This document shows positions 43,018 to 46,341 of a stretch of 64,000 nucleotides of DNA, one piece after another; the stretch's first letter is position 1; the number at the start of each line of letters is the position of its first letter. The position numbers and the translations under genes were made by a program. The notes below the pieces were generated by a model. The model ran no database searches. It saw nothing but the letters and a program-made list of their open reading frames with translations, and was not told the origin of the DNA. This DNA is from a virus, in IMG/VR virus record IMGVR_UViG_3300021364_000008, positions 35,004 through 99,003 of that record. One strand, written 5' to 3'.

Positions 43018-44427
43018 TTAGTAACCTATTGGATGATTTGCTGCAGGTGATTTGGTATAGTCAGTGTCATAAACTGGAGTGATTTCTTGAAACTGCATAT
43101 TTAATCTATATGCCACCATAGTTGCATCAGGATCCTCATAAGTCATATAAGATCCTAATGGAGTATAATCAACACTGAAATTGATTAATGCACAGGCTTT
43201 TGTTTCTTCATCATCTGGGGCAATTAAATTGATTGATTTATGAAGTTGATTTCCTTTTTGATATTGAATTTTGAATACATAAGGTGCCTTTAAAAAGAGA
43301 CCTCCAGGCACTTCTCTTACTGCCATATGATATTTAAAGTATCTTATAATTTCTTTGATGATATTAACTTCTCCTGAATTTCTTGCACTCATTAAGAAAG
43401 TGAAGTTAAATGGACGAAGTTGAGGTCCTCTAAAAAGAAGTTCTAAGTTTGGATTGAGAACTAATGAGGTTGCTCTTGTAAAAATGCTTGGATTCCCTGC
43501 AGCAAGAGAAGCTACGAGATGATTGAATTTTGTACTATCAAATTGATTTTTGAGTTCTCCCAGTGCTTCTACAAGACCCATTGCCCCTTTTGCCATTGCT
43601 TCTCCAACATTACCATTAGTGGTGTTCATTGCTTTAAAAGCAGAATTATACAATGTGGCATCCAGGGGGTTTAAATTTCCTTCCCCCCAATCAACAGTAT
43701 TTTGATCTGAAATTGGAGATTGAATTGAAATATAAACTGGAGGACTTACTGATTTGTATAGCGGTCTTCCGAAGGAAAATGTTCCTTGATTAGATCTTCC
43801 ATTAATATCTGCAGCTGTAAATTTGATTCTATCTTGATCTGTTTCGGCAATATCTAATGGATATATTAGAGTATCACTAAACTGTATTTTTGGGTTTGTT
43901 GCGGTTCCGCCGATATAATTATATGGATTAGATGGATCTTGTATATCTACTCCAGGTCTAGGCAAAACTGGTGCTTGAGGACCTTGAGGACCTGGTGAGT
44001 TTTGAGACAGTATTGGATCTCCATTTTGGTCTACGATTAATTGTGAATTATTTGGATCTGATACTCCTGGTATTCCATTTTTGAAAAATAGATCTTGCTT
44101 AACTGGATCTGCATTTTTGTTTATAATTGCAGCTCTTTCGTTATTAAACTTTTTTGTTCCATCTGTATATAATAACCTAGTAAATTCACTTTTTGATAAT
44201 TGATTTTGTGGATTTGCTTGATTATATTCTCTAACAATATAGTCTATGTTATTGGGATCAGTAGCCCATGTTTTTCCATCATCACCTGAAGATGATATTA
44301 TTTTTGTATCTGTAGCTGGAAAAAATGGTGCCTTTAAAAATACTTCAGTATCTCCATTATCTAGATTTACAATTTGCTTTAATTTAAGTCCTTTAAATGG
44401 ATATTCTGTGGTTAATTGTTCTGCCAT
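43018..44427 (-). CDS. gp48: Baseplate tail-tube cap protein gp48
   Basis: A 469-residue protein. The C-terminal half contains P-F-N-F-T-F-L-M-S-A-R-N-S-G-E, then I-I-K-E-I-I-R-Y-F-K-Y-H-M and a late Y-T-P-L-G-S-Y. These are the features of T4-like gp48 tube-cap proteins, which sit on the hub and start tail-tube polymerisation together with gp54. The N-terminal third is longer than in T4 gp48 (364 residues) and has a Pro/Gln-rich linker (G-P-Q-G-P-Q-A-P). It is read with gp53 downstream. Assignment versus gp54 rests on order and on the gp54-like tube domain at 45637. Confidence 0.8.
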   Translation of the reverse strand: MAEQLTTEYPFKGLKLKQIVNLDNGDTEVFLKAPFFPATDTKIISSSGDDGKTWATDPNNIDYIVREYNQANPQNQLSKSEFTRLLYTDGTKKFNNERAAIINKNADPVKQDLFFKNGIPGVSDPNNSQLIVDQNGDPILSQNSPGPQGPQAPVLPRPGVDIQDPSNPYNYIGGTATNPKIQFSDTLIYPLDIAETDQDRIKFTAADINGRSNQGTFSFGRPLYKSVSPPVYISIQSPISDQNTVDWGEGNLNPLDATLYNSAFKAMNTTNGNVGEAMAKGAMGLVEALGELKNQFDSTKFNHLVASLAAGNPSIFTRATSLVLNPNLELLFRGPQLRPFNFTFLMSARNSGEVNIIKEIIRYFKYHMAVREVPGGLFLKAPYVFKIQYQKGNQLHKSINLIAPDDEETKACALINFSVDYTPLGSYMTYEDPDATMVAYRLNMQFQEITPVYDTDYTKSPAANHPIGY

Positions 44428-44507: not shown

Positions 44508-44515
44508 TATTTATA
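44508..44515 (-). promoter_or_regulatory. Minus-strand late promoter TATAAATA upstream of gp48
   Basis: The reverse complement reads TATAAATA and overlaps the gp4 stop codon, about 80 bases before the gp48 start at 44427. This matches the stop-overlapping late promoters on the plus strand. Confidence 0.6.
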
Positions 44516-44963
44516 ACCCAAGTTCTTCTTCCGTAATGATTTTAAATTCAATCATACGATCATCACACCATTCCTTTGCTGCTTTCCACTTTGCAATATT
44601 TTTATTATAGGTAAGAACTTCATTAATGTAAGTTTTTTTTCTCTTACCTTTAGATTCTTTTGGTTCTAATGTTTGTCTTTTTGGTTTAACTTCCACCAGA
44701 TATTTTTTGGTTTTTCCACTACTTTCTTTGATTTTTATAATAAAGTCTGGAAAATATCTACGAACCTTATTTGTTGTTGGATCTAGATAAGGAATAAAAA
44801 ATTCTTCTGACCCATATTTTAATATGTTGGGAGAACGATCGCACCATTGCATAAACTTAAGTTCCCAATTGCTTCTATACACTATATTATTTGGATTTCC
44901 AATATATTTTTCTGGATTTCTTGGATGAAAAAATCCTTGATGATATTTTGAATCACGAGGCAT
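44511..44963 (-). CDS. gp4: Head completion protein gp4
   Basis: A 150-residue protein, the same length as T4 gp4, when started at the ATG at 44963 (M-P-R-D-S-K-Y). Motifs in order are H-P-R-N-P-E-K-Y-I-G-N, Y-R-S-N-W-E-L-K-F-M-Q-W-C-D, P-Y-x-D-P and R-R-Y-F-P-D-F-I-I-K, then Y-L-V-E-V-K-P. The P-D-F / E-V-K pair is a TnsA/PD-(D/E)XK nuclease-like core, and gp4 completes DNA-filled heads for tail joining. The longer frame to 45020 belongs to the overlapping homing ORF. Its start region is duplicated at 45543-45605. Confidence 0.9.
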   Translation of the reverse strand: MPRDSKYHQGFFHPRNPEKYIGNPNNIVYRSNWELKFMQWCDRSPNILKYGSEEFFIPYLDPTTNKVRRYFPDFIIKIKESSGKTKKYLVEVKPKRQTLEPKESKGKRKKTYINEVLTYNKNIAKWKAAKEWCDDRMIEFKIITEEELGL

Positions 44964-45522
44964 TTTTCCAACCTTTATGAGATTTATTTCTTCCAGAAAC
45001 AACATGTTGTAAGCAACCAATATTTAAATTATTTTCCCTGGCAAATTTAGTTAAGTTTTTTATTTTTACAATTTCTCCTTTTGGGGAAATTAATCTATAT
45101 TCTTTGCTATTTTTTTCCGATAATTTTTGCTTTGTTGTTTCTGGACAAGGTTTTCCTTTGAGGGGACTTTCATTTTTTTTAAACCACTCTTTTCTTTTTT
45201 CACTTTGCTTTAACTTTGCTTCTTCACTATGAGTCTTTCCCCACATTGGATTTAGTTTGCCAAATCTTGCACTACCATACATTCCATTTTTTTCTTTATG
45301 GTTGGCACGACTCATTCTAAAATTATCATCCTTACAAAGTTCCAACATTATTTGTCTCAATAATTCTTTTGTCTCTTCTGAATGTTTTTTACCATAAAAG
45401 GGATTTAATTTTCCCTCATATCCACAATTTCCTTCGTATTCTTCGTAGATAATTTCTGAAGTAGTGTTAATATTAAAGGTTTCGTTTAATTTTTTAGTAT
45501 TAAACTTAATAATTCTTTTCAT
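44953..45522 (-). CDS. NUMOD-rich homing-endonuclease-like protein lacking a visible nuclease core
   Basis: A 189-residue basic protein. It has three NUMOD3 motifs (N-P-F-Y-G-K-K-H-S-E-E, N-P-M-W-G-K-T-H-S-E-E, S-P-L-K-G-K-P-C-P-E) and a C-terminal NUMOD1-like helix-turn-helix (N-L-T-K-F-A-R-E-N-N-L-N then H-V-V-S-G-R-N-K). These DNA-binding modules form the C-terminal part of GIY-YIG or HNH homing endonucleases, but only about 30 non-matching residues precede them. The catalytic domain may be lost or unrecognised. Its last codons overlap the start of gp4, and a gp4 5' copy lies just upstream, pointing to insertion at gp4. Confidence 0.75.
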   Translation of the reverse strand: MKRIIKFNTKKLNETFNINTTSEIIYEEYEGNCGYEGKLNPFYGKKHSEETKELLRQIMLELCKDDNFRMSRANHKEKNGMYGSARFGKLNPMWGKTHSEEAKLKQSEKRKEWFKKNESPLKGKPCPETTKQKLSEKNSKEYRLISPKGEIVKIKNLTKFARENNLNIGCLQHVVSGRNKSHKGWKNAS

Positions 45523-45542
45523 TATGAATTAACTATTCAATA

Positions 45543-45605
45543 TTATTTATATTTTTCTGGATTTTGTGGATGAAAAAGTCCTTGATGATATTTTTTTTCA
45601 GACAT
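45543..45605 (-). pseudogene. Duplicated N-terminal fragment of gp4
   Basis: A 20-residue reading frame, M-S-E-K-K-Y-H-Q-G-L-F-H-P-Q-N-P-E-K-Y-K, then TAA. It matches gp4 residues 1-19 (S-K-Y-H-Q-G-F-F-H-P-R-N-P-E-K-Y), and DNA at 45551-45592 is clearly homologous to that at about 44905-44950. It lies upstream of the homing-endonuclease-like ORF. It is a relic of the original gp4 start or of imprecise homing. Confidence 0.7.
45544..45551 (-). promoter_or_regulatory. Minus-strand late promoter TATAAATA before the homing ORF
   Basis: The reverse complement is an exact TATAAATA overlapping the stop of the gp4 fragment and 22 bases before the start at 45522. It could supply gp4 with a late promoter now separated from it by the inserted ORF. 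Confidence 0.6.
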
Positions 45606-45636
45606 ACATAGTATAAGAACCATACAATATTTATAA

Positions 45637-46341
45637 ATGCCTGCCCCATCTCCATCAAGAAAAAGTGCGGCAACTACTATTAAAGAGAAGTTATTAAGAC
45701 CAGCTTTAACTTCTCATTTTGAATGCACATTTACTCCTCCAAGATTAGTAATAGACTGGATTAGAAATAATAGGGAATTTAATTATGATGATATTAATAA
45801 TCAAGAACTTATCACATTATCTTGCTCAGAAGCATCTTTACCTGGATCTTCATTAGCAACTAATGAATTAGTTGATGATCATCATGGAGTTGCTGAAAGG
45901 CACGCTTATAGAAGACAGTATGATGATCGTGCTGATTTTACTTTTTATGTTGATGCTCCTAGAAATGAAGGTGATAAGGGATATAAGGTCTTGTGGTTTT
46001 TTGAGCAATGGATTGGATATATTGCATCTGAAGAGTATGCCGAAGGTTTAGACGATGCAAATTATTTTTATAGATTTAGACTTCCTGAAACTTATAGAAA
46101 TGATATATACATCACAAAGTTTGAGCGAGATTATGATTTAAGTCTATCTGATTATGCTAGAAAGGGATTTTCAAATGAGTCTTCAAAAGAATATTTGGAG
46201 TATAAATTTTTAGAGGCATATCCTATTTCCATTAATAGTATGCCGGTTTCTTATGACAATTCTCAATTACTCAAGTGTACAGTTTCATTTACTTATACAA
46301 GATATATTCCCAGAAGAAAAAAAGGTATCTATTACACCTAG
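45637..46341 (+). CDS. gp54: Baseplate tail-tube initiator gp54 (C-terminus frameshifted)
   Basis: A 234-residue protein with a tail-tube-like fold: T-S-H-F-E-C-T-F strand, L-I-T-L-S-C-S-E-A-S-L-P-G (the tube-protein C-x-A-x-L-P-G pattern shared with gp19), R-R-Q-Y-D-D-R-A-D-F-T-F-Y-V-D and a final K-C-T-V-S-F-T-Y-T-R-Y. T4 gp54 (320 residues) caps the baseplate and starts the tube. The frame ends in a stop right after an A7 run (46317-46323). Removing one A would extend it by about 43 residues to 46453. Divergent transcription from the gp4 unit starts here. Confidence 0.75.
   Translation: MPAPSPSRKSAATTIKEKLLRPALTSHFECTFTPPRLVIDWIRNNREFNYDDINNQELITLSCSEASLPGSSLATNELVDDHHGVAERHAYRRQYDDRADFTFYVDAPRNEGDKGYKVLWFFEQWIGYIASEEYAEGLDDANYFYRFRLPETYRNDIYITKFERDYDLSLSDYARKGFSNESSKEYLEYKFLEAYPISINSMPVSYDNSQLLKCTVSFTYTRYIPRRKKGIYYT

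Follow-up and report, generated by a model that had tools for sequence, protein, structure and literature searches.

A homing-type mobile cassette has very probably been inserted into gp4 of a marine T4-like phage, with replacement of the start of the gene. The window, i.e., the whole stretch of DNA analysed, comprises 64,000 nt of the IMG/VR record IMGVR_UViG_3300021364_000008. The cassette would consist of a late-promoter-like TATAAATAATA, a leader, an open reading frame (ORF) for a NUMOD/HTH DNA-binding protein and the first ~50–60 codons of a foreign gp4. Its boundaries, the tract of gp4 it replaces, its recurrence, its loss scars, the lack of a nuclease domain and the purifying selection on the ORF are established by sequence comparisons; as the ORF has no nuclease, the double-strand-break mechanism offered below is conditional. 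A sequence-only reading of this DNA had already proposed that an insertion hit the 5′ end of gp4 and that the gene then received a replacement start. That proposal is strongly backed by an empty/filled pair of alleles (L003/L001), the mosaic gp4 of the window, stranded remnants of old gp4 starts, and scars left by cassette loss.

Arrangement of the locus

The minus strand carries, in order, a native leader with TATAAATA, a dead gp4 start, a second TATAAATA, the NUMOD ORF and gp4. The native late-promoter-like TATAAATA (45628..45635, minus strand) lies in the old leader at 45635–45628, where it adjoins the start of the divergent gene, and its position is kept in nearly all relatives with or without the ORF. 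The leader segment GGTTCTTATA..TATGTATG precedes the outer gp4 copy and is common to the window and L001, L002, L003, L023, L025 and L066. The dead start, or outer copy, has 20 codons (MSEKKYHQGLFHPQNPEKYK, then a stop) at 45543..45605, minus strand. The left end of the cassette, shared by divergent ORF-bearing loci, carries its own late-promoter-like TATAAATA (45544..45551, minus strand), and it meets the old gp4 copy at the codons KYK. As TATAAATA is not over-represented (9 sites in the AT-rich window against 7.9 expected), it was rejected as an over-represented promoter, and its promoter role rests on conserved position.

The NUMOD ORF (189 aa, 44953..45522, minus strand) overlaps gp4 by 11 nt (44953..44963, minus strand); the working, inner gp4 ATG is at 44963. 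The ORF, both starts and the overlap are all where the sequence-only reading had put them, on the minus strand. An overlap of 8–13 nt is found in almost all ORF-bearing loci of both types described below. gp4 (44963–44511) is a T4-type head-completion protein with a TnsA-like PD-(D/E)XK fold (Pfam TnsA-like, 2e-22; phrog_218). Identity, max-chi2 and AU tests assign its codons 1 to about 50–59 (44800..44963, minus strand) to the cassette, and the remainder (44511..44800, minus strand), which is nearest to ORF-less L002, L003, L066 and L023, to the recipient. A tail-tube cap gene (phrog_230, 43018–44427) lies downstream of gp4. The upstream divergent neighbour (45637–46341, plus strand) encodes the tail-tube protein (phrog_45); the junction is tail tube/gp4 and not, as first read, gp4–gp54. 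In four cyanophage records (Bellamy, P-TIM68, S-CREM1 and S-B05) gp4 lies directly beside a divergent gene with nothing in the gap, and the S-CREM1 record annotates that gene as tail tube.

Empty, filled and scarred alleles

L003, which has no ORF, and L001, which has it, are the same phage on both flanks and form a natural empty/filled pair. The left flank of 2146 bp is 99.0% identical, and its final 244 bp are free of mismatches. Beyond it L001 has a 606-bp insertion; the next 185 columns contain 45 differences, and the following ~1,465 only one. The gp4 of L003 starts with MREGKYHQG; L001 has a stranded remnant, MREGKYH, and a working start, MPRDSKYHQG, with new DNA replacing gp4 up to codon ~55–66. 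The remnant in L001 is thus the start of the recipient and the inner start is foreign. The MREGK start is also that of the ORF-less phages L002, L023, L025 and L066, so that the insertion in L001 is the derived state.

The gp4 of the window is a mosaic with a break that coincides with the end of the L001 tract. Codons 1–50 are 90–95% identical at the nucleotide level to ORF-bearing phages, and from about codon 55 the gene is closest to ORF-less L002, L003, L023 and L066 (85–92% in most windows of comparison). With 20 parent pairs, every max-chi2 test gave p ≤ 2e-4, with breaks at gp4 nt 150–179 (codon ~50–59). AU tests reject the wrong grouping on either side of the break, which for the 5′ tract is that with L002/L003 kin. 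The leader GGTTCTTATA..TATGTATG is of the L002/L003-group type expected of a recipient. A coconversion tract accompanies the insertion both in the L001/L003 pair and in the window. Among the available relatives of the window none is both ORF-less and nearly identical to it, and the event in the window itself is deduced from the mosaic.

The outer gp4 copy, recovered by tblastn with a gp4 query, is not a chance match: beyond the start codons its 45-nt core is 42/45 (93%) identical to the inner copy. The presence of such a fragment in ORF-less phages had been set beforehand as evidence against the insertion; it was looked for, and there is no second copy of the gp4 start in 61 ORF-less loci, the one pattern hit (L055) being unrelated sequence. 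The starting residues M-S-E-K-K and M-P-R-D-S had also suggested that the two starts came from different phages. In the window these residues do not by themselves show it, as the next 45 nt are 93% identical, but relatives do: a different origin is clear in L001/L003, in L101 (66/90 nt) and in L120/L123. Compared with ORF-less gp4 starts, the outer core matches L002/L003, the kin of the 3′ part of the window's gp4, at 34–35/45 and MPRD-type alleles at 43/45. As the outer core is nearer to the inner copy than to L002/L003, gene conversion between the copies or an unsampled recipient allele is assumed, and for the outer core alone a local duplication is possible.

A third class of alleles consists of scars. 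In L035, L049, L076, L196 and near-copies the ORF is missing apart from its last codons, (S)HKGWK, read from AAAGGTTGGAAAA, which stand just before an MPRD-type gp4 start. Empty, filled and scarred gp4 alleles coexist. Separately, L010, L017, L019, L051 and L061 are ORF-less and have a MPRDSKYHQGFFHPQNPEKY gp4 start that agrees with the window's outer core at 43/45 nt; these are possibly older scars.

The left end of the cassette

The left end TATAAATAATA abuts outer remnants of many lengths. The remnants include MREGKYH, MAESIKSKY, MGE, MAESLKSI, MAESNKST and MSYKGK, with 18 codons in the window, 30 in L101, and equivalents of 5–31 codons in other ORF-bearing loci. Roughly a dozen distinct remnants are joined to this one end, and the end is the cassette's own; the view of its late promoter as a leftover of the old gene must be given up. 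Type A ORFs are preceded by TATAAATAATAtgGAATa..TTAATTC, of which the downstream part has diverged in the L102–L113 group. The joins vary in position, and many fall on K-Y-K codons, where AAATATAAA looks like the promoter; a microhomology join at the left end is suggested by these sequences.

The NUMOD protein

Pfam detects NUMOD3 alone (6e-15), and PHROG homing-endonuclease families are matched mainly across their DNA-binding part. In the AF2 model (pLDDT 80) a short N-terminal strand-helix-strand unit leads into helices and a C-terminal HTH as in I-HmuI and I-TevI. Foldseek matches I-HmuI (probability 1.00) and the I-TevI DNA-binding domain (0.75). No catalytic nuclease domain (GIY-YIG, HNH, PD-(D/E)XK, EDxHD or Endo VII-like) was found by Pfam, PHROGs, or sequence and fold searches of the PDB. 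A hidden nuclease domain was rejected as well: AF2, Foldseek and a PDB profile search yield DNA-binding modules only, and the first ~35 residues leave no space for one. The term homing-type is therefore apt for the NUMOD3 and HTH DNA-binding modules, but the protein is not a complete homing endonuclease. The median dN/dS is 0.285, and the values of 0.11–0.19 for the window ORF against most close relatives indicate that the protein is functional. Nuclease-less ORFs also have a conserved N-terminus in common. Despite its lack of a nuclease domain, the ORF is under purifying selection and has moved recently.

Distribution of the cassette

In a sample of 80 IMG/VR loci picked, not at random, for similarity of their gp4 to that of the window, 27 have a NUMOD-type ORF directly upstream of gp4. 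Dozens of contigs from environmental phages (IMG/VR) show this arrangement, almost always with no nuclease in the cassette itself. The insertion site is fixed beside a conserved gene, with relatives of the window's family directly upstream of gp4 and 61 loci without the ORF. Type A relatives are 52–79% identical and ~190 aa long; type B relatives, at the identical location, are shorter (mostly 116–168 aa) and diverged (29–41% identity), and in many of them the ORF opens, in the same frame, with gp4 start codons of the native type (MAES.., MGEN..). Among type A loci, ORF distances follow those of the gp4 5′ part (r = 0.93) better than those of the gp4 3′ part (0.79) or the tail tube (0.76), in favour of a cassette that includes the gp4 start. 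As all three correlations are significant, part of the history is vertical.

Sequenced phages offer little for comparison. No match covering 80% of the ORF exists among 50,697 phage records, protein matches are partial and at most ~41% identical, and the window has no close relative at the DNA level, a distant DNA search giving a single 53-base match. A description of such a gp4 arrangement was not found in the literature searched, whose reach mostly did not extend to subscription papers.

Of interest are L120 and L123, distant phages with gp4 42–43% identical. They carry a second, different family of nuclease-less NUMOD3 ORF at gp4 (L120:1071-1749; L123:2129-2802) in the same architecture, with a stranded gp4 start (MAYRGKFTPKHP..) and TATAAATA. 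Hence there was more than one origin, or more than one spread, of the arrangement. Nuclease-bearing versions at the gp4 site occur only in L111, where a GIY-YIG half is joined to the same ORF C-terminus (74%), and in L127, a distant phage. L127 has a full HNH-type homing endonuclease of 300 aa (L127:3563-4465) with a 17-nt overlap into the start of gp4; several types of homing gene are drawn to this end of gp4.

Alternative explanations

The near identity of the window's two starts, at a level met by only 2.5% of pairs of ORF-bearing and ORF-less loci, could mean that the phage duplicated its own gp4 start locally, in tandem, giving the outer copy, with the ORF arriving separately between the two. 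This is very unlikely, as the L001/L003 pair combines a remnant of the recipient's start with a foreign inner start, the copies in L101 match at 66/90 and those of L120/L123 are unlike, the window's gp4 is a mosaic, and two starts occur in no ORF-less locus. An intact MSEKKYHQGLFHPQNPEKYKG gp4 start in an ORF-less near relative of the window would contradict it further. A homing-type ORF within an essential gene also brings to mind an intron or intein with flanking exons, and this can practically be dismissed: the two pieces cover the same codons, where exon parts would not overlap, the outer one ends in a stop and the inner has its own start, and an Rfam search gave no intron hit. Group I introns and inteins were rejected on these grounds.

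Two further alternatives concern the ORF itself. It might be a decayed homing endonuclease on its way to being lost, placed long ago by homing of the full enzyme and shuffled since by ordinary phage recombination. The scars do show loss, and L111 (GIY-YIG with the same C-terminus) and L127 (HNH) place full enzymes at the same site. Such decay deserves serious thought but is on the whole unlikely given ORFs that stay intact under purifying selection across many phages, with a conserved N-terminus, and that have moved recently in L001. It is rather unlikely, too, that the ORF persists because its product binds DNA and regulates the gp4 operon, with only incidental mobility. The protein consists of DNA-binding modules only, a late-promoter-like site lies at the cassette end, and I-TevI is an autorepressor at a late promoter (PMC2988022). 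Against regulation stand the many relatives without the ORF, and a cassette leader that resembles gp4 no better than shuffled sequences do, unlike the operator and homing site of I-TevI; an operator of the I-TevI kind, resembling the homing site, was rejected for that reason.

A possible route of insertion and loss

With a mobile homing-type cassette as the preferred reading, entry into the gp4 of a recipient phage would take place in a mixed infection. A double-strand break in gp4, probably near codons 40–55, would be repaired from the cassette-bearing genome. The presumed break falls between the end of the longest remnant, which in L101 runs to about codon 40, and the right limit of the tract. 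On the right, repair would proceed via gp4 homology and cross back at codon ~50–66; on the left, where the flanks differ, the end may be joined at short matches like AAATATAAA, leaving a piece of the old start stranded. The new gp4 start lies within the last codons of the ORF. The SHKGWK codons can serve as a ribosome-binding site for gp4, and gp4 can thus still be expressed. Later loss of the cassette would leave the SHKGWK codons as a scar.

The nuclease would come from elsewhere. The conservative choice is a nuclease-bearing relative acting in trans, such as the GIY-YIG version in L111; the other candidate is gp4 itself. TnsA acts with a DNA-binding partner, and the TnsA-like DNase gp4, whose gene follows the ORF immediately, is produced in every T4-like infection. 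A split homing nuclease, whose NUMOD protein binds DNA sequence-specifically and recruits gp4 to cut ORF-less gp4 alleles, is an improbable arrangement. It is favoured by the attachment of two distantly related nuclease-less NUMOD3 ORFs (the window's family and that of L120/L123) to gp4, and the occurrence of ordinary nuclease-bearing versions at the gp4 site speaks against it. gp4 is a nuclease by fold (PMC1189080), and non-specific DNase activity has been reported for it (Benler 2020, as cited in PMC7824862).

An in-frame NUMOD–gp4 fusion of 341 aa was detected in L109 (L109:3983-5008) and counts in favour of the split nuclease, but it is a single case. It differs from L110 by one A in a run of A, the contigs being 99.86% identical over 5.9 kb, and a sequencing error is possible. 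Recurrent fusion was rejected, as two pattern scans of the collection returned only L109.

Outside the window, the phage's own genome has a GIY-YIG + NUMOD3 ORF of 244 aa (L162, at G000:C1:24969) and, close to it, an HNH-like ORF of 192 aa (L160, at G000:C1:26706), both possible nucleases in trans. In L161 (G000:C1:6648-7034), also outside the window, a NUMOD3 ORF precedes an intein-like C-terminal block, VEGEHHYILDNGVVSHNS, which by eye runs into UvsX-like sequence; as the match contains stops, the intein may be decayed or split.

Significance and comparison with known systems

A selfish element can in this way occupy an essential virion gene without splicing, by bringing along the beginning of that gene. 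Each move rewrites the first third of the conserved gp4, and trees or annotations built on gp4 could be led astray by it. The empty, filled and scarred alleles together amount to a life cycle that is open to direct test. The near-universal absence of a nuclease, together with purifying selection, poses the question of the source of the break, for which gp4, a DNase, is a candidate.

The element behaves like a homing cassette but does not encode the nuclease that defines a homing endonuclease. As with the free-standing Seg and Mob homing endonucleases of T4-like phages (PMC2988022), it lies beside an essential gene, overlaps its neighbour, has DNA-binding modules of the same class and is associated with coconversion of flanking gene sequence. 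It differs in having no GIY-YIG or HNH domain, in carrying its own gp4 start and late-promoter-like site, and in one end that is joined without allelic homology and leaves a remnant. MobE in nrdA of Aeh1 and MobA at T4 gene 60 are likewise homing genes within essential phage genes, but they split the host gene in two, whereas gp4 of the window is whole since its 5′ part has been replaced (PMC2988022). The I-TevI DNA-binding domain and the I-HmuI C-terminal domain share the HTH module with the window ORF, in which the catalytic domain is missing.

The closest analogue is found in fungal mitochondria. There, mORF elements replace the C-terminus of a gene, i.e., atp6 in Allomyces macrogynus and atp6, atp9, cox2 and nad3 in Glomus (PMC3630166): a homing-type ORF brings a foreign end of the host gene, a hybrid gene results, and the native end is stranded beyond the ORF. 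A foreign end in use and a stranded native end are both present in the phage cassette. The mORF elements encode LAGLIDADG or GIY-YIG enzymes, and by that definition the window ORF, with no endonuclease to drive mobility, stands apart. By analogy, the phage cassette is a mirror image of the mitochondrial ORF with its foreign C-terminus, found at the 5′ rather than the 3′ end, on a virion gene of a phage rather than a mitochondrial gene, and with an ORF that has no nuclease domain.
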